Shown piece after piece: positions 7,664 through 64,000 of a DNA stretch of 64,000 bases. Numbering within the stretch: position 1 is the stretch's first letter; every line of letters starts with the position of its first letter. The notes beneath the pieces are model-generated. The model was not told the DNA's origin and did not search any database. It saw only the letters and a list, made by a program, of their open reading frames with translations. Origin of the DNA: Ilumatobacteraceae bacterium (GTDB lineage: Bacteria; Actinomycetota; Acidimicrobiia; Acidimicrobiales; Ilumatobacteraceae); contig JANYKU010000182.1 in NCBI GenBank assembly GCA_025358075.1, positions 1 through 64,000 of the forward strand, read 5' to 3'. The translations under genes were made by a program, and so were the position numbers.

Positions 7664-8554
7664 TCAGAACAAGTACCCGATCACGTCGATGACGAAGTGC
7701 GTCGAGTTGGCTCCGGCCGTCACCTTCACCCGACCGCTGGCATCGACAGCCACGGTGGTGCTGACGGCAACGTTCTCGCCCGCTGTCGACCAGTTGATGC
7801 TGCTCGTCGACGGCTCGAGGATCGCTGCGCTGTACAGCTTCAAGAACCCGCCGTTGCCCGACGTCGATGTGACCGTGAGCGTGACCATCGCGGCGGTGGC
7901 ACCTGGCGGAACCGCGATGAAGCTTGCACCCAGCGCGTCTTTGCCCGTCGCCAGATTGATGTTCCGCGTCTCGGACGCGGCGATCTTGACGCCGGAGTTG
8001 TCGCGAGAGTCGTACGCCCGCAGCGGCACCGGCAGGAGATGCAACTCGCCTGCGGGAGCGGGCCCGGCAGCCAACTGACCTCGAATGGCTCCATTGAGGA
8101 AGCCGGCGGTGATCACGTTGACGTAGTAGTCCGACGGATTAGCGAGGATCGCATCGAGCGTCGCCGGCGGAGCCGCAACGCATCCTGTGGCGGAAGTGGC
8201 GCCGAGATTGGCGAAGGGCATGAACGACACAACGGGCACGCCACCCGCGGCATGTTCGATGTGCACGTCTGTCGGAGTCGCAATGCCGGTGTACGTGAGG
8301 TCCCAACAGACCTGGGCGTTGGTCGCGTCAACGACATCCAACGTGACGGCTGCGGTACCGGATCCGCTTGCGTTGCCAGACAACGCCGGCAGCACTTTGG
8401 CACTCGACAATTGGGCAAGGTACGGGGTTTGCGCTACCCGCAAGTAGCTCAGCGTGCCCTGATTGCTGCGGGCGTTGCCGAAGGCGATGCTCGGAATCGC
8501 GATCGCCGCGGTCATTCCGACCGCGGCCATAGCGATCAATGATTTCGTTTGCAT
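7664..8554 (-). CDS. Secreted CHRD-domain protein with C-terminal VIDVIGYLF module
   Basis: Signal-like N-terminus; CHRD-type AVTLDVVDATNAQVCWDLTYTGI; C-terminal module shared with the downstream paralogue. Confidence 0.75.
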   Translation of the reverse strand: MQTKSLIAMAAVGMTAAIAIPSIAFGNARSNQGTLSYLRVAQTPYLAQLSSAKVLPALSGNASGSGTAAVTLDVVDATNAQVCWDLTYTGIATPTDVHIEHAAGGVPVVSFMPFANLGATSATGCVAAPPATLDAILANPSDYYVNVITAGFLNGAIRGQLAAGPAPAGELHLLPVPLRAYDSRDNSGVKIAASETRNINLATGKDALGASFIAVPPGATAAMVTLTVTSTSGNGGFLKLYSAAILEPSTSSINWSTAGENVAVSTTVAVDASGRVKVTAGANSTHFVIDVIGYLF

Positions 8555-8656
8555 GGGGGTCCCCTGTCTCGTACCGAAGAACGGTCGAGAGGACCCTAGG
8601 CGACGGAGTCGGCGCCGAGGTCTCAGAGAGGAGACCCCGGCGCCGGACTCAGTCCG

Positions 8657-9589
8657 TCAGAACAGGTAGCCGATGACGTCGACCACGAAGTTCGTCGGAT
8701 TCGCTCCGTCGGTGATCTTCACCCGACCGGAAGCATCCACTGCGACCTGTGTGGTGACCGCCAGGTTCTGGCCGGCACCAGTCCAGTTGATGCTGCTGGT
8801 CGACGGAGGCGTGCCGAGTGCTGCGGTGTACAGCTTCAAGAAGCCTCCAGGGCTGTTGGCAATGGACGTATCAGTGACGGTCAAGGTCACGATCGCCCCA
8901 GTTGCTCCCGGCGGCACGGCAAGGACCGTGGCATTTGCCGAGTCCTTACCCGTGGCCAAGCTGACGGTGCGGGTTGTGTTCAGCGCGATCGGTCCGTCAA
9001 GATCACGGGAGTCATAAGCGCGCAGCGGGGCCGGCAACAGGTGAGCTTCACCGGCTGGCGGCGGCCCAGCGGCCAACTGACCGCGGATGGCTCCGGCAGG
9101 GAAGGTGGTGGTGTGTACGTTCACATAGAACCCGGCGGGATTGGCCTCGATCTGGGTAGCGAGAATTCCGCCGCCCACCGTTTCGGGGAGGACAGCAGCA
9201 CCTACGGGCGCACAGCCTGTCGCACCCGTAGCCGTGATGTTGCCGAACGGAAGCACGATGTTCCCATTGGTCCCAGCGGCGCCGCGGTGGATATGAGACG
9301 CAGTCACGGTGCCCGTGAGCCCGCTGTAGGAAAGGTCCCAACACACGGTGGCTCCGTCGGTGTTGCTGAGGGGATTGGTGATGTCGAAGGTCACGGCCGC
9401 GCCGCCGATGCCGAGGGGTTCACCCGGGGGCGTTTCGGCTGATGCACCGGTTAGACGAGCCACGTACGGTGTTTGTGCAGCTTGCGTGGTGCTCGTGTTG
9501 CTTCTTGCGTTACCAAGTGCGATGGAGGGTATTGCGATGGCTGCAGCGCAGCCGACCGCGGCCATACAGGCCAGGGTTCGTTTTTGCAT
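8657..9589 (-). CDS. Secreted CHRD-domain protein, tandem paralogue
   Basis: AVTFDITNPLSNTDGATVCWDLSYSGLTGTVTASHIHRGAAGTNG; same C-terminal module as 7664..8554. Confidence 0.78.
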   Translation of the reverse strand: MQKRTLACMAAVGCAAAIAIPSIALGNARSNTSTTQAAQTPYVARLTGASAETPPGEPLGIGGAAVTFDITNPLSNTDGATVCWDLSYSGLTGTVTASHIHRGAAGTNGNIVLPFGNITATGATGCAPVGAAVLPETVGGGILATQIEANPAGFYVNVHTTTFPAGAIRGQLAAGPPPAGEAHLLPAPLRAYDSRDLDGPIALNTTRTVSLATGKDSANATVLAVPPGATGAIVTLTVTDTSIANSPGGFLKLYTAALGTPPSTSSINWTGAGQNLAVTTQVAVDASGRVKITDGANPTNFVVDVIGYLF

Positions 9590-20689: not shown

Positions 20690-20758
20690 CCTCCATGTTG
20701 CGATCGAGTTGTCCGAACTCTCGCGCCATGCCTAACTCTTTTCTGGCTCGACAGGCGG

Positions 20759-20777
20759 ACCTGTCGCGACGACAGGT
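20759..20777. repeat. Palindrome ACCTGTCG-CGA-CGACAGGT
   Basis: Perfect 8-bp arms; same motif at 47606-47624. Confidence 0.7.
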
Positions 20778-20883
20778 GCGGGTGTCGAGTGGGCGAAAAC
20801 ACTCTCGTCTTCCCGCGCTCGGATCGGTAGTTCGGATCGGGGCCTCGGATCGACGCTGGTATGACGCGCGTTCGCAACCGAAC

Positions 20884-24227: not shown

Positions 24228-24271
24228 GTGACGAGTTCCTTGATCTAGTGCGAAGAAATGGGACTGGGCGG

Positions 24272-24296
24272 TGTGGGCACCTTGACGGTGCCCACA
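24272..24296 (-). promoter_or_regulatory. Perfect 10-bp hairpin TGTGGGCACC-TTGAC-GGTGCCCACA
   Basis: Between the micro-ORF2 stop (24307) and the GGDEF/EAL start. Confidence 0.6.
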
Positions 24297-24306
24297 TCGC
24301 AGTTCA

Positions 24307-24402
24307 CTACCACGTGAACGGTGCACCGACCGATGCGATCAAGGCAACGAACGTTGCCAAGGCCGTAGCGATCCGCACCGGACTGTGGGTGACGTTCTTC
24401 AT
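24307..24402 (-). CDS. 31-aa micro-ORF2, hydrophobic peptide
   Basis: Manual translation MKNVTHSPVRIATALATFVALIASVGAPFTW; ATG overlaps the micro-ORF1 stop. Confidence 0.6.
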   Translation of the reverse strand: MKNVTHSPVRIATALATFVALIASVGAPFTW

Positions 24403-37780: not shown

Positions 37781-38455
37781 ATGAAAAAGATCGTCTTGAT
37801 AGGTGCCTTCGCATTGCTGGCAGCTTGCGGCAGTTCGAGCGGAGTCTCGATCAGCAAGAGCACGACGCCGGCGGGCGGCACCGCCTCGGCAGCCGGCAGC
37901 GACACGACCGCCGCGCCGGGCGACACGATCTCGGTCAAGAACTTCGGCGAGATGCCGCCGCAGTGCATCAAGCTGTTGTCGACGTTCCTCAAGCAGATCG
38001 AGCCCATCGTCTCCAAGGTCGACTGGACCAAGGCGACACTGGCCGACTTCGAGGCACTCGGCACGCAGTTCACCGACGAGTCGAAGACATTCGATACGCA
38101 GAGCTCTGCGGCCGGATGCGACAAGTACAACGTCACCGGCTCCGACGCCGAGCAACTCAAACAAGTCATCGCACTCGCTGTCAAAGACGCGCCGGGAACC
38201 GTCAAGTTCCTCACGTACATGGGCGCGCTCTCGGCCAGTACCACGGGCGCTGGTGCATCGGTCCCGTCCGATTGCGCAGGAACGATCGCAGCGATCGAGC
38301 CGTTCCTCGGCAAGGGAAAGACGATGAAGGACCTCACGATGGCCGACATCACCAAGCTCGGTTCGCTGATGACAGCGGTCGGCACAAATTGCACCTCCGC
38401 CGAGGCTCAGGCGTTCTACGCCCGCGACGACGTGAAGGCGTTCATCAGCGGTTAA
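37781..38455 (+). CDS. Putative lipoprotein
   Basis: MKKIVLIGAFALLAACGSSSG lipobox. Confidence 0.7.
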   Translation: MKKIVLIGAFALLAACGSSSGVSISKSTTPAGGTASAAGSDTTAAPGDTISVKNFGEMPPQCIKLLSTFLKQIEPIVSKVDWTKATLADFEALGTQFTDESKTFDTQSSAAGCDKYNVTGSDAEQLKQVIALAVKDAPGTVKFLTYMGALSASTTGAGASVPSDCAGTIAAIEPFLGKGKTMKDLTMADITKLGSLMTAVGTNCTSAEAQAFYARDDVKAFISG

Positions 38456-38461
38456 GTCGAT

Positions 38462-38520
38462 CGGGCGTCACAATCAACGCGGGCGCCGAAACGGGCGTTG
38501 ACGGCCCGAATCGACGCCCG
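38462..38520. terminator. Nested inverted repeat at a convergent gene boundary
   Basis: CGGGCGTC/GACGCCCG outer and CAACGC/GCGTTG inner arms. Confidence 0.45.
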
Positions 38521-38547
38521 CGATGACCTTGCGACGACGGGCGTGGC

Positions 38548-56255: not shown

Positions 56256-57155
56256 TTATATCGTCTTACGGGTCACAAAGGCGACACCAAGCAATGAAAT
56301 GGCCAATCCGACCAGGGCCAGCGCACCCAACCGCTCGCCGAACAGGATCGACCCTTCGACCGCGCTGAGCGCCGGGGTGAGGAAGAACAAGCTGGTCACC
56401 TGTGACGCGGCCCTTCGCTGGAGCAACCACAGCATCAGCAGCACGGCCGCGATCGACAGCACAACGACCGCCCACAACAGGGCGAACAGCGACCGGCCGG
56501 TGATGTGGAAGTCGATGTGCTCCCACACCGAGGCCAGGATGACGAGCACGACACCTGCGCCGGCGTATTGGATCACCGTGCCCCACAGCAGTGGCATCGT
56601 CGAGCACTTCTTGCGTTGCACCAGCGTGCCGCCGGCCATGCCGACAACGCTGACTGCCGATGCACCCATCGTGATCGCCGTGATCCCGCTCGAGTGCGTC
56701 AGCAAGCGATCGATGACGACCGCCACCACTCCGACAAAGCCGAGGCCGACACCGATCCACTGCAGCCGGATCAGCCGTTCGCCGAGCACCCGGCGCGATG
56801 CCAGGGCGGTGAGCACTGGATGCAGTCCGGCGATCAACGCGCTGACCCCGGCGGGAAGGCCATGATCAATGGCGACGAAGACCCCGCCGAGGTACAGGAC
56901 GTGCATGCCGATCCCGGCGAGCACCACCCACGGAACGAGCTTGCGGTCGACTCGCGTTGCCGTCCGCAACGCGGCCACGACCGCGAGCGCAACCGCGGCG
57001 AGCACCATCCGAGCGGCGAGGAACGTCAGCGGACCTGTATCGGACGTGGCATACCGGGCGGCGACGAACCCCGTGCTCCACAACACGGTGAAGATCCACG
57101 GGGCCGACGACACGACGCGAGAAGGGCGGGCCGCAGAAGCGACCCGCCCTTCCAC
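56256..57155 (-). CDS. EamA/DMT-superfamily transporter
   Basis: WSTGFVAARYA, multiple TM segments, GERLIRLQWIGVGLGFVGVVAVV. Confidence 0.85.
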   Translation of the reverse strand: MEGRVASAARPSRVVSSAPWIFTVLWSTGFVAARYATSDTGPLTFLAARMVLAAVALAVVAALRTATRVDRKLVPWVVLAGIGMHVLYLGGVFVAIDHGLPAGVSALIAGLHPVLTALASRRVLGERLIRLQWIGVGLGFVGVVAVVIDRLLTHSSGITAITMGASAVSVVGMAGGTLVQRKKCSTMPLLWGTVIQYAGAGVVLVILASVWEHIDFHITGRSLFALLWAVVVLSIAAVLLMLWLLQRRAASQVTSLFFLTPALSAVEGSILFGERLGALALVGLAISLLGVAFVTRKTI

Positions 57156-57175
57156 CGTTGAGCCTGATGAGGCGG

Positions 57176-58357
57176 TCAGGCGCCACCCTCAGTCAAGGTG
57201 ACCGTGAGTGGGGCGAAGCTCGCCCCGTTGACGTCGATGTTCTCGGCCTTCAACTGCTTGATCGCTTCGTTGACGATGTCGTTGGTGTACGACTCGGGGT
57301 CGGGTGCCTTGGTCAAAACCGTCTTGCCATCGAGGTTCTTCGTCTCGCTGGCGATCTTGGCGGTGCGGTCCCAAGCTGCCTGATCGATCACGCCGACACC
57401 GATCGTCGACGGCCAGATCAGCTTGTTGATCTCGTTCATCTGCCACAGCTGGTGCGTGGCGCCGAGCTTGGAGCCCTTGCTGACGACGATGTCGCGGCAG
57501 CCCTGGGCATTGTCCCGGCAGAATGCCCAGCCCTTCAGCGATGCCTTGACGAAGGCGATCGCCTCGCCGCAGTAGGCGGGGTCGGCGAGTCTGGTCTGGT
57601 CGGCCCAAATGGCGTCCTGCAACATTCCGACGCCTTCTTTCTCGTACGACACCACGTTGAGATCAGCAGGTGTGTACAGCGCGCCGGTCGCCGTGTTCTT
57701 CGCTTCCAACACTTGGGCGTACTCGTTGTAGGTCATCGCCTCGGCCGCGTCGATGTCGCCAGAGAGCAAGCCGTTCATGTCGAAGTTCTGGGCGAGCAGG
57801 GTGACATCCTTTGCCGGATCGAGACCGTCCTTGGAAAGTGCGGCGAAGATCTCGTACTCGTTGCCGAAGCCCCAGTTGCCGATCTTCTTGCCCTTGAAGT
57901 CTTTCGCCGACGTGATGTTCTTGGCCTTGAAGCTGACCTGCAACGTGCCGCTGCGCTGGAAGATCTGGGCGATGTCGGTGACCTTGGCACCGGCTTCACG
58001 CTCGGCAAGCGCCTTCGGCACCCACGAGATGGCGAAGTCGACGGCGCCGCTTGCCAGTGTCTTTTGCGGTGGGATGTCGACGCCGCCCTCGACGATCTGA
58101 ACGTCGAGCCCGGCATCTTTGTAGAAGCCCTTGTCGACGGCGGCGTAGTACCCACCGAACTGTGCTTGGGTGACCCATTGCAATTGCAACTTCACCTTGG
58201 CGCCTGTCGGCTTGGTGCACTTCGACACATCGACCGCCAGCCCTGCGCCGGTCGGCGTTGTGCCGCTGGATGACTTCGCATCGCTGCCGCATGCCACGCC
58301 CAGCAATGCGGCAAGGCTCAAGACGGCTGTCGCCTTGACCAAACGTTTCGTGTGCAT
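57176..58357 (-). CDS. ABC transporter substrate-binding protein (NMT1/THI5-like)
   Basis: Lipobox SLAALLGVACG; VKLQLQWVTQAQFGGYYAAVDKGFYKDAGLDVQIVEGG. Confidence 0.9.
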   Translation of the reverse strand: MHTKRLVKATAVLSLAALLGVACGSDAKSSSGTTPTGAGLAVDVSKCTKPTGAKVKLQLQWVTQAQFGGYYAAVDKGFYKDAGLDVQIVEGGVDIPPQKTLASGAVDFAISWVPKALAEREAGAKVTDIAQIFQRSGTLQVSFKAKNITSAKDFKGKKIGNWGFGNEYEIFAALSKDGLDPAKDVTLLAQNFDMNGLLSGDIDAAEAMTYNEYAQVLEAKNTATGALYTPADLNVVSYEKEGVGMLQDAIWADQTRLADPAYCGEAIAFVKASLKGWAFCRDNAQGCRDIVVSKGSKLGATHQLWQMNEINKLIWPSTIGVGVIDQAAWDRTAKIASETKNLDGKTVLTKAPDPESYTNDIVNEAIKQLKAENIDVNGASFAPLTVTLTEGGA

Positions 58358-59992: not shown

Positions 59993-60882
59993 CAAACCCC
60001 TTCCGGAGGATGCCGGCGCATCATCTGCCGATCGATCACGGCAACGACGAGCGCCATCACCAGACCGAGCGCCGCCGCACCGAACACGGCCGTGTACAAC
60101 TTTGGCGGGTCGGACGTCGCCTCCTGCCCGTACGACAGGATCAGCCTGCCGACGCCGGCGCGAATGCCGAGCGAGATCTCGGCGACGACGACACCGACCA
60201 CGGCCGAGGCGCCGGCGATTCGTAGCGACGGGGCGATGAACGGCACCGCCGCGGGGAACCTCAGCTTCGACAGCGTGCGCCACCACGGCGAAGCCAGCGA
60301 ATCCATCAACTCCATCGAGGCGGGTGGCGTCGATTGAAGTCCACGAAGTGTGGCGACCGCCACGGGGAAGAAGGCCAAGAACACCCCGAGCAACGTCGCC
60401 GCGATCCACGTCTTGGAGACGAGGTCGCGACTGCCGTACGCCATCAGCCCGATGATCAGGGGGCCGAGCACGATGATCGGGACGGTCTGCGACATGATCA
60501 GGTACGGCATCAGCCCGCGCTCGACGAGCCGGAAGCGAGCCATCAGAACAGCGACGGCAACGCCGAGCACGGCGCCGATCACGAATGCGGTGAAGGCAAC
60601 TCTGAACGAATACCAGGTTGCCGCAGTGACCACGGACAGGATCGTCTGCTTCCCGCCGCGCACCTCCGGACGCCCGAGTCGCGACACCATCTCCCAAACG
60701 TGAGGCATCGTTCGGCTATTGGTACGTGGCAACAACCGCATGCCCAGGAGCCGCCCACCATTGGCCGGCCCGATGGCCTTGTAGCCCTCCCACGCGGCGG
60801 CGACGAAGGCAAACGCCACCGGGAACATGACCAACTTGCGAACGCGTGCTGACATCGTGTTCGCCGAGCTGCGATCGGTCAC
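59992..60882 (-). CDS. ABC transporter permease
   Basis: TM segments; ASPWWRTLSKLRFPAAVPFIAPSLRIAGASAVV. Confidence 0.9.
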   Translation of the reverse strand: MTDRSSANTMSARVRKLVMFPVAFAFVAAAWEGYKAIGPANGGRLLGMRLLPRTNSRTMPHVWEMVSRLGRPEVRGGKQTILSVVTAATWYSFRVAFTAFVIGAVLGVAVAVLMARFRLVERGLMPYLIMSQTVPIIVLGPLIIGLMAYGSRDLVSKTWIAATLLGVFLAFFPVAVATLRGLQSTPPASMELMDSLASPWWRTLSKLRFPAAVPFIAPSLRIAGASAVVGVVVAEISLGIRAGVGRLILSYGQEATSDPPKLYTAVFGAAALGLVMALVVAVIDRQMMRRHPPEGV

Positions 60883-61907
60883 GCCCTGGCCTTGACCGTT
60901 TCTGCGACCGCCGGCATGACCTTCTCGCCGTACATCTGCAGCGTGTGGTCCTTGTCATCGTGTTGCAGATAGATGCTGAACTGGTCGACACCGAGCGCCT
61001 TCAACGCGGTCATCCGTTCGATGTGGGTACTGACCGGGCCGACGATGCAGAAACGGTCGACGATGTCGTCGGGGACGAACTGGGTGTGGGGGTTGCCTGC
61101 CAGGCCGTGTTCGTTGTAGTCGTAGCCCTCGCGGCCCTTGATGTAGTCGGTCAACGCCTGAGGAACCGCACCGCTGTCGCCATAGCGGGCGACAAGGTCG
61201 GCCACGTGGTTTCCGACCATCCCGCCGAACCACCGGCATTGCTCGCGCCCGTGAGCGAGCCCCTCCTCCGTTCCGTCGGTGACGTACGCCGGAGCAGCGA
61301 CGCAAATGGTGATGTCGGCGGGATCGCGGCCCGCGGCTGCGGCGGCATCGCGTACCGCACCGATCGTCCATTCGGCGATCGACAGGTCGGCCAGTTGCAG
61401 GATGAACCCATCGGCCACCTGGCCGGCGAGAGCGAGTGCCTTGGGGCCATATGCCGCGACCCAGACCTGGAGCGTGCTGCCGGTCGACCATGGGAAGCGG
61501 AGTTGCAAGCCCTTGTAGTCGACGCTACGTCCGTTGGCCAGTTCACGGATGACGTGCACGGCTTCGCGGAGTGTGGCCAACGTTGTCGGCGCCCCGTTGG
61601 TGACTCGCACCGCCGAATCGCCGCGGCCGATCCCGCAGACGGTGCGATTGCCGTACATCTCGTTGAGCGTTGCGTAGAGACTGGCCGTGACGGTCCAGTC
61701 GCGCGTCGCCGGATTGGTCACCATCGTCCCGACGACGACCTTGCGGGTCTCGGCGAGGATCTGGCTGAAGATGACGTACGGCTCTTCCCACAAGATGTGC
61801 GAGTCGAACGCCCAGACATGGGTGAACCCATAGGCCTCGGCCCGTCTCGCCAGATCGATCACCCTCGCGGCGGGAGGTGTCGTCTGCAGCACCACTCCGA
61901 ACTCCAT
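60879..61907 (-). CDS. LLM-class F420-dependent oxidoreductase (TIGR03842-like)
   Basis: MEFGVVLQTTPPAARVIDLARRAEAYGFTHVWAFDSHILWEE. Confidence 0.88.
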   Translation of the reverse strand: MEFGVVLQTTPPAARVIDLARRAEAYGFTHVWAFDSHILWEEPYVIFSQILAETRKVVVGTMVTNPATRDWTVTASLYATLNEMYGNRTVCGIGRGDSAVRVTNGAPTTLATLREAVHVIRELANGRSVDYKGLQLRFPWSTGSTLQVWVAAYGPKALALAGQVADGFILQLADLSIAEWTIGAVRDAAAAAGRDPADITICVAAPAYVTDGTEEGLAHGREQCRWFGGMVGNHVADLVARYGDSGAVPQALTDYIKGREGYDYNEHGLAGNPHTQFVPDDIVDRFCIVGPVSTHIERMTALKALGVDQFSIYLQHDDKDHTLQMYGEKVMPAVAETVKARA

Positions 61908-61954
61908 TAGCCCTCTCTCCCAATCTCGAGAAACGACGCCCGCTGCGGTGCAGC

Positions 61955-62019
61955 CCGTGGTTCGCTCCTCGACACGGTCGGGAACCGAGCCGACCTATCG
62001 TCTCGTCGTCGAACCACGG
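61955..62019 (-). repeat. Structured element copy 1
   Basis: Minus strand: CCGTGGTTCG-ACGACGAGACGATA-GGTCGG-CTCGGTTC-CCGACC-GTGTCGAGGAG-CGAACCACGG. Confidence 0.8.
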
Positions 62020-62120
62020 CCCGCCCCTTGCTGTTGATCCCACAAGGCAACGATCGTGGCAGACACCAGGCGCTGGGCGGCGCTGCAGACTCAGGGAGAT
62101 GCCGAACAATGCGCACGCGA

Positions 62121-62202
62121 GGCGACGGTCGGAGTTCGATCCTGAGACGGTAGGTCGCCGGGGTTTGGCGACCGTGTCGAAGGACGAACACCGAGCGTCG
62201 CC
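62121..62202 (+). repeat. Structured element copy 2
   Basis: GGCGACGGTCGGAGTTCG-ATCCTGAGACGGTA-GGTCGCC-GGGGTTT-GGCGACC-GTGTCGAAGGA-CGAACACCGAGCGTCGCC. Confidence 0.8.
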
Positions 62203-62250
62203 GAAGCCCCTGAACGGCGGCCGTCGGCAGGGCCGGTACTCGCGCGAGCC

Positions 62251-63735
62251 TCATCGGTTTTGGGGAAAGCCGAGATCGACCGAGCTGGTTCTCGGGTCGG
62301 GCCACCTGGAGGTCACGACTTTCGTCTTGGTGTAGAAGTTGACGCCCTCTGGGCCGTACATGTGGGTGTCGCCGAACAAGCTGGCCTTCCACCCTCCGAA
62401 GCTGTAGTAGCTCACCGGCACGGGGACCGGAACGTTGACGCCAACCATTCCGACCTGCACGTCGAACTCGAACTGACGCGCAGCCCCGCCGTCGCGTGTG
62501 AAGATTGCCGTGCCGTTTCCGTACGGGTTGTCGTTGATCAGCTGCAGTCCCTCTTGGTAGCCGCTGATGCGCGTGACCGTGAGCACCGGCCCGAAGATCT
62601 CGTCGTCGTAGCAGGCCATTCCCGGCTTGGCGTTGTCGATCAGCGACGGCATGAGGAAGAAACCTCCGCCGGGTGCGCCTTGCCGTCCGTCGACGACCAG
62701 TGTCGCGCCTTCGCCTGCGGCACCAGCGATGTAACCGGCGACCTTGTCGCGGTGCTCGCCGGTGATCAACGGGCCCATCTCACTCTCGGACTCGCTGGCC
62801 GGGCCGACCTTGATTGCAGGGATGCGGTCCTTGATCTTGGCGACGAGCGAGTCGGCGATGGCCTCACTGGCCAGCACGACCGAGATCGCCATGCACCGCT
62901 CGCCCGCAGACCCGTATGCCGCGCTGACGGCGGCGTCAGCAGCCATGTCGAGGTCGGCGTCGGGCAGCACGAGCATGTGGTTCTTGGCGCCGCCAAGAGC
63001 TTGAACGCGCTTGCCGTTGCGGGTACCGGTCTCGTAGATGTATTTGGCGATCGGGGTCGAGCCGACGAAGCTGATGGCGGCGACGTCGGGATGATCGAGG
63101 AGGCGGTCGACCGCGACCTTGTCGCCGTTGACGACGTTGAAGCAGCCGTCGGGAAGCCCGGCCTGCTTCAGCAGCTCGCCGATCAACATGCTGGTCGACG
63201 GATCCTTCTCGCTGGGCTTGAGGATGAAGGTGTTGCCGCACGCCAGGGCGTTTGCGAACATCCACATCGGCACCATGCCAGGGAAGTTGAACGGGGTGAT
63301 GCCAGAGACCACACCGAGCGGCTGCTTGATGCTGTACACGTCGATGCCCGTGCTGGCTTGCTCGCTGTAGCCACCCTTCAGCAGGTTGGGTATCCCGCAC
63401 GCAAACTCGATGTTCTCCAAGCCACGGGCGACCTCACCCAGTGCATCCCCCAGTACCTTGCCGTGCTCCTTGCTGATGAGCGAAGCGATCTCCTTGCGGT
63501 TGGCATCGACCAACTCGCGCATGTGGAACATCACCTCGGCTCGCCGCGAAAGGTTCGTCGCCCGCCAAGCCGGAAACGCCGCCTTGGCCACAGCCACCGC
63601 GTGATCGACCTCCGCAACAGAAGCCAGATCCACAGCCGCCTGCTGAGTCCCAGTAGCCGGATCCCAAACCACCCCCGACCGCCCCGAGGTCCCTTCGACA
63701 ACCTTCCCGTCAATCCAGTGCGATATGCGATTCAT
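62251..63735 (-). CDS. mmsA: CoA-acylating methylmalonate-/malonate-semialdehyde dehydrogenase
   Basis: FNFPGMVPMWMFANALACGNTFILKPSEKDPS, ALGGAKNHMLVLPDAD, GSAGERCMAISV. Confidence 0.94.
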   Translation of the reverse strand: MNRISHWIDGKVVEGTSGRSGVVWDPATGTQQAAVDLASVAEVDHAVAVAKAAFPAWRATNLSRRAEVMFHMRELVDANRKEIASLISKEHGKVLGDALGEVARGLENIEFACGIPNLLKGGYSEQASTGIDVYSIKQPLGVVSGITPFNFPGMVPMWMFANALACGNTFILKPSEKDPSTSMLIGELLKQAGLPDGCFNVVNGDKVAVDRLLDHPDVAAISFVGSTPIAKYIYETGTRNGKRVQALGGAKNHMLVLPDADLDMAADAAVSAAYGSAGERCMAISVVLASEAIADSLVAKIKDRIPAIKVGPASESESEMGPLITGEHRDKVAGYIAGAAGEGATLVVDGRQGAPGGGFFLMPSLIDNAKPGMACYDDEIFGPVLTVTRISGYQEGLQLINDNPYGNGTAIFTRDGGAARQFEFDVQVGMVGVNVPVPVPVSYYSFGGWKASLFGDTHMYGPEGVNFYTKTKVVTSRWPDPRTSSVDLGFPQNR

Positions 63736-63808
63736 CGTTCAGATTCCCTTTCCTTAAATCCGACGGCAAGTGAGCAGCCGTCGAAACGTGTGATTTGTTG
63801 AGTAGCGA

Positions 63809-63890
63809 GGGGAACATCATCATTCGATTGCGAGACGGTAGGCCGGGTGCATTTCCCGGCCGTGTCGAGCAACGAATGATGATGTTCCCC
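63809..63890 (+). repeat. Structured element copy 3
   Basis: GGGGAACATCATCATTCG-ATTGCGAGACGGTA-GGCCGGG-TGCATTT-CCCGGCC-GTGTCGAGCAA-CGAATGATGATGTTCCCC. Confidence 0.85.
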
Positions 63891-63897
63891 GAGCGGA

Positions 63898-64000
63898 CTA
63901 GACGAGATATTGCGAGAGCCCACGCTTGATGTATTGACCATGACCCTTTCGACCCGTGTACTGATCGTTCTCGATGACGACAACGCCGCGCGACAACACC
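63898..64000 (-). CDS. Dihydropyrimidinase-like protein, C-terminal fragment (continues beyond window)
   Basis: Manual translation VLSRGVVVIENDQYTGRKGHGQYIKRGLSQYLV then TAG; resembles dihydropyrimidinase C-termini. Confidence 0.68.
   Translation of the reverse strand, partial: VLSRGVVVIENDQYTGRKGHGQYIKRGLSQYLV

Follow-up and report, generated by a model that had tools for sequence, protein, structure and literature searches.

What maintains three long hairpins between the genes of one bacterial operon, and which strand of them matters? The question arises from a 64,000-nucleotide stretch of DNA from an uncultured Ilumatobacteraceae bacterium (the window), in which such hairpins occupy two gene junctions. 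The structured element described here is real and not previously described, and the few related species that have it carry it at a single operon. Its conserved structure is well supported, belongs to a bacterial family that has received little study, and is absent from the RNA and repeat libraries tested here.

Three Hairpins of Common Fold at Two Junctions of a Catabolic Operon

In the operon, hydA and mmsA are separated by an antisense element, and mmsA and the LLM gene by an antisense element followed by a sense element (Table 1). In the syntenic relative G348 (locus L060), hydA matched TIGR02033 with 533.8 bits (cutoff 393.25). A 2-oxoacid oxidoreductase alpha subunit (TIGR03710) was also above the NCBIfam cut-off, and a MocR-like regulator, an amidase-family enzyme and an ABC ATPase gave matches below it. 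We take these genes for a cluster that combines an ABC transporter with reductive pyrimidine/beta-alanine catabolism, and its substrate is a putative assignment.

Table 1. Genes and structured elements at the two junctions (window coordinates)
Feature	Position	Strand	Identification or location	Orientation to operon
LLM-class F420-dependent oxidoreductase, downstream of copy 1	60879..61907	(-)	NCBIfam TIGR03842, 577.6 bits, cutoff 295.45	
Copy 1	61952..62021	(-)	mmsA-LLM junction	sense
Spacer inside head-to-head pair (copies 1 and 2)	62022..62116			
Copy 2	62117..62207	(+)	mmsA-LLM junction	antisense
mmsA, CoA-acylating methylmalonate-semialdehyde dehydrogenase	62251..63735	(-)	NCBIfam TIGR01722, 695.7 bits, cutoff 448.5	
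Copy 3	63805..63894	(+)	hydA-mmsA junction	antisense
hydA (dihydropyrimidinase), 3' end	63898..64000	(-)	extends past window, contig C80	

Read on its own strand from base to loop, the element (~90 nt) starts with a basal GA/GA (5'-GYGA…GARC-3') in copies 2 and 3 and, among the relatives, in those copies that occupy the hydA-mmsA junction, and continues with an outer helix of ~14 bp whose sequence differs in nearly all copies and in which purine-purine mismatches are frequent at the second and seventh pair, counting outward from TTCG. Inward of this helix come TTCG/CGAA, a single base that stays unpaired and is mostly A, a 4-bp helix that varies, GA/GA, and a middle 4-bp helix, GACG/TGTC, which terminates with an invariant G·U and is replaced in two relatives by ACCG/TGGT, a clean double compensation. 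RTA then faces G, and an inner helix, 6 to 11 bp long, leads to a terminal loop of 7-8 nt, frequently GGGTTY. The tetranucleotide RTAG (GTAG or ATAG) stands immediately before the inner stem in every copy, within the longer hairpin and not at its end.

In the host, copy 1 comprises an outer CCGTGG/CCACGG, TTCG/CGAA, an A bulge, CGAC/GGAG (C-G, G.A, A.G, C-G), GA/GA, GACG/TGTC, ATA/G and an inner GGTCGG/CCGACC closed by the loop CTCGGTTC; its outer helix is shorter than those of copies 2 and 3 and is devoid of the basal GA. Copy 2 has a basal GC-GA/GA-(A)GC, 14-nt arms with A.A and G.G mismatches, and a core of TTCG/CGAA, an A bulge, TCCT/AGGA, GA/GA, GACG/TGTC and GTA/G ahead of the inner helix. 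Copy 3, whose distance to the stop codon of hydA is ~3 nt, has a basal GC-GA/GA-GC, a perfect 14-bp outer helix, the core of copy 2 and an inner GGCCGGG/CCCGGCC.

The RNA folding energies of copies 1, 2 and 3 were -44.2, -58.3 and -64.1 kcal/mol, with z values of -4.20, -7.27 and -9.29 against dinucleotide shuffles, none of 200 shuffles being equally stable. The element's own strand was the more stable one in each copy, the reverse complements still reaching ~ -38 to -64 kcal/mol. In a scan of the 64-kb window, the copies at 63801 and 62121 were the two top-ranked 90-nt structures. The observation of three long hairpins with a common, unusual fold and differing sequence was thus confirmed.

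Other structures of the window were recorded in the same analysis. The next-ranked 90-nt structures lie at 24231-24320, 38451-38540, 8461-8550, 8601-8690 and 57121-57210, the last of which resembles a terminator-type hairpin and is located between a substrate-binding protein gene and an EamA gene. An imperfect palindrome at 20747-20790, CTCGACAGGCGGACCTGTCG-CGA-CGACAGGTGCGGGTGTCGAG with a GGCGG/GCGGG internal loop, is unrelated to the elements.

The sequence-only reading from which this work started had placed three structured copies at intergenic sites beside the LLM gene, mmsA and a dihydropyrimidinase-like gene; all three were located where it put them and with the parts it described, and the gene calls bear out the siting. 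Copies 2 and 3 reach further than it had proposed, to the basal tandem GA (GCGA...GAAGC and GCGA...GAGC), and within the strands that it took as constant the internal loops are indeed so, whereas the GACG/TGTC between them is a covarying helix. A coding origin was rejected: some copies read in operon sense give LDTVG..PPTYRL-like peptides, copy 2 differs, and no common frame is kept.

Compensatory Change Maintains the Fold

Among the 13 full copies, 17 of the 24 pairs showed double-sided change, and 91.9% of the cells were paired. The covariation score was 0.415 as compared with 0.119 (sd 0.020) after shuffling, where none of 500 trials reached the observed value, and with at most 0.077 for slid pairings. 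A 10-copy MAFFT alignment that was not fitted to the structure gave the same covariation outcome. The internal loops GA/GA and RUA/G and one G·U pair were constant across copies. The copies therefore share one fold with fixed noncanonical loops and compensatory change in its helices, in agreement with the selection on structure claimed in the sequence-only reading. Because the unpaired positions are fixed, a mere palindrome is disfavoured, and the presence of the same hairpins in the same gaps of seven related species indicates that the fold itself is preserved.

The Element Is Confined to Two Junctions in a Few Related Genomes

The strict core pattern GAGACGNTAGG..GTGTCGA matched three times in the 4.44-Mb host draft genome (G000), and the reversed control pattern did not match. 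A covariance model built from the three copies retrieved these three only in the host (81 to 89.5 bits; next 20 bits, E 0.28), the E-values of these covariance models being rough and the element-bearing genomes being drafts. When 222 genomes of the family were searched, copies appeared in seven, the host included, and an eighth genome, G506, was recognised from its junction. The 14 copies are distributed as three each in G000 and G348, two each in G502 and G503, and one each in G372, G498, G505 and G506, so that, apart from those of the host, there are 11 copies, spread over seven further species of this family. All 14 fall within the hydA-mmsA or mmsA-LLM junction, none elsewhere in the eight genomes.

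The layout is constant, with a singleton and a head-to-head pair in G000 and G348, and the pair also in the mmsA-LLM junction of G502 and G503. In G503 (L098 2607-2812), the inverted copies have an identical inner stem-loop and different middle helices; the identity suggests conversion between copies.

Wider searches gave the same picture. A pattern scan of ~85,000 GTDB genomes yielded 30 loci, of which 4 were real, all in this operon, and the rest were rejected. The 34 pattern matches in IMG/VR were at chance and none refolded into the structure, and a search of plasmids and phages found no copy. At the order level, the strict-pattern match in G014 was assigned to chance, and a class-level model search of 395 genomes returned only G089, with a hairpin devoid of the conserved loops, and added no copies. 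A half-element search allowing 2 mismatches provided no extra copies scored as real by the model, and the literature on Ilumatobacter riboswitches held nothing relevant.

These searches include several of the checks that the sequence-only reading had itself proposed. Against Rfam 15 nothing matched at the gathering threshold and nothing of relevance when this was relaxed, and no known repeat matched either; the model search found the same two junctions in the relatives; and genome-wide copies with degenerate loops were not found in the host genome. As for the RAYT/Y1 transposase, which that reading listed among its checks, PF01797 was absent from G000 and eight relatives in a search in which the controls were detected and the drafts were incomplete. 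As a whole, that interpretation is partly supported.

The Junctions Point to Inserted DNA and Vertical Descent

The mmsA-LLM gap measured 3 to 58 bp in 24 of 29 measurable junctions (best LLM loci), 347 bp in G000 and 289 bp in G348. In G372, G383 and G504 (L104, L110 and L112) it measured 108 to 124 bp and held a different insert of ~110 bp with hairpins of its own (GGCGTTCAyGGC type). The hydA-mmsA gaps were mostly ~17 to 80 bp, some being 84 to 184 bp with unrelated sequence, and the element-bearing ones contained the whole ~90-nt element. Because the junctions are tight in most relatives, the elements represent extra DNA (~90 bp each) in the operon, whose existence as an operon is itself implied by these tight junctions. 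As a separate observation, the 184-bp hydA-mmsA junction of L143 (G306) holds other long hairpins whose sequence is unrelated to the element.

On the mmsA+LLM tree the presence of the element is patchy. Both G348 (L060 4690-4900) and G372 (L061 6186-6370) carry a tandem duplication of the 3' half of their hydA-mmsA element, and this shared duplication, together with shared flanks, indicates vertical descent at orthologous places, despite which the stems of the two differ through compensated changes. G383 retains CCCTCACTTGAA, an element end common to G348 and G372, which may be read as a deletion scar.

The Constrained Strand Appears Not Always to Be That of the Message

Relative to the operon, the antisense orientation is that of copies 2 and 3 and of every copy at hydA-mmsA, and the sense orientation occurs only in copy 1 with its counterparts. 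On the element's own strand, the 36 outer-arm mismatches of the antisense-lying copies consisted of 27 purine-purine and 9 G·T, with no A·C and no pyrimidine-pyrimidine, against an expectation from arm composition of 51% purine-purine, 15% G·T, 13% A·C and 21% pyrimidine-pyrimidine. The probability of zero A·C or pyrimidine-pyrimidine would be ~0.66^36 = 3e-7, a value that overstates the case because the copies are related. With looser, longer pairing into the flanks the G·T excess was weaker (14:5 antisense, 4:7 sense) and the purine-purine excess was unchanged. Polarity thus follows the element independently of the operon, and the constrained strand appears to be the element's, and not that of the operon mRNA, at two of the three places, as in REP or attC hairpins. 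This suggests selection on a hairpin strand other than the operon message, and a conserved strand that is the element's own disfavours a simple riboswitch or leader. On this evidence the element may equally well act within an mRNA, as a separate transcript of its own strand or as single-stranded DNA.

Possible Roles of the Element

The explanation that we prefer, tentatively and at somewhat below an even chance, is a REP-like hairpin family that has settled in this operon, has an intrinsic strand polarity and acts between cistrons. An ancestor of these Acidimicrobiia would have acquired the elements at the two junctions of its pyrimidine/beta-alanine operon, and they would have been retained at both since then, with repeated losses. 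The own strand would fold to a rod whose noncanonical sites, the basal GA/GA, the central GA/GA and RUA/G, may be recognised by a protein, and the elements in the junctions might separate or stabilise operon segments, as proposed for intercistronic REP/BIME, the acting molecule being either RNA or exposed single-stranded DNA. This explanation has to contend with a core more elaborate than that of REP and with an RTAG inside the structure, and segmenting of the mRNA leaves the antisense-strand polarity unexplained. Because no copies exist beyond the operon and no Y1 transposase was found, a REP-type origin is also left without its supporting machinery.

An own-strand structured RNA that binds a protein or metabolite and tunes pyrimidine catabolism is a serious possibility, if on the unlikely side. 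Copy 1 would then be a sense leader of the LLM-transporter part, and copies 2 and 3 would belong to antisense RNAs that arise at the mmsA and hydA junctions. The invariant G.U, the tandem GA motifs, the recurrent GGGUUY-like terminal loop and the strict tie to a single catabolic cluster are all consistent with such an RNA, as is the fact that G.T is allowed and A.C absent on the own strand, although folded DNA likewise tolerates G.T and purine-purine mismatches. Antisense transcription would have to be conserved at two junctions, and no sigma-70-like promoter was found in the spacer of the head-to-head pair or around any of the copies, a test that is weak for actinobacteria.

That the elements constitute a new locus-specific class of structured nucleic acid seems rather doubtful to us; such a class would be an own-strand RNA or single-stranded DNA hairpin with several noncanonical protein or ligand sites, intercistronic in either orientation and controlling reductive pyrimidine/beta-alanine catabolism in Acidimicrobiia.

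The sites directly after the hydA and mmsA stops and ahead of the LLM start, the operon to which the tight junctions of the relatives point, and reverse complements that fold well would all suit hairpins of the polycistronic mRNA that serve its stability, processing or attenuation in operon sense regardless of element orientation. We nevertheless consider such hairpins improbable, since in the antisense-lying copies the mismatch polarity is on the antisense strand, every copy folds more stably on its own strand, and a U-tract is absent.

A mutational artefact, in which palindromes are maintained after an old insertion by templated correction (hairpin template switching) and have no selected function, would explain why almost every change strikes both sides of a pair together, why the outer helix of copy 3 is perfect and why the G503 copies have a common inner stem, as if converted, but it is very improbable because correction should remove mismatches, and yet across genera the GA/GA, RUA/G and G.U have survived together with the purine mismatches of the outer helix.

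If confirmed, the element would be a regulatory hairpin that works independently of its orientation, or else a case in which palindromic repeats have settled at a single operon, and how REP-like elements become host functions would be testable at that one locus.

Comparison with Known Systems

Intrinsic terminators are, like the elements, GC-rich stem-loops at the ends of genes; unlike them, the elements have conserved internal loops and no U-tract or T-run, and a terminator scan placed no terminator-like site on any copy. A MITE with terminal inverted repeats was discarded, as the arm sequences differ among copies and target-site duplication was not evident by eye in the junctions. With riboswitches and orphan RNA motifs (Rfam 15) the elements have in common covarying helices and fixed noncanonical loops beside one metabolic gene set, and they differ in the lack of a relevant Rfam match, in mixed orientation and in several intercistronic copies instead of one leader. 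A riboswitch or cis leader in the 5' UTR sense was rejected because the orientation is wrong for most copies.

Integron attC sites are imperfect single-strand hairpins in which structure is kept over sequence and one strand is active (PMC2727003). The elements resemble them in one-strand folding and in this precedence of structure, and differ in that no attC-type boxes were noticed by eye, no gene-cassette array is present and the flanking genes form a conserved catabolic operon.

REP/BIME/REPIN sequences, which are associated with RAYT, are extragenic GC-rich palindromes with intrinsic polarity, a GTAG head ahead of the stem, head-to-head pairs and locations at operon junctions (PMC3733652, PMC2817692). 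Whereas REP sequences are dispersed in tens to thousands of copies of 20-40 nt, the host has three copies, all within 2 kb at one locus, and the ~90-nt element has conserved internal loops and an internal RTAG, which is ATAG in some copies. Because neither a dispersed copy number nor a RAYT transposase was found, we do not file the element as REP. Its polarity, its head-to-head extragenic pairs and its position at operon junctions are those of REP/BIME palindromes, its RTAG-tagged stem recalls theirs except for the internal place of the tag, and its architecture is closest to theirs.
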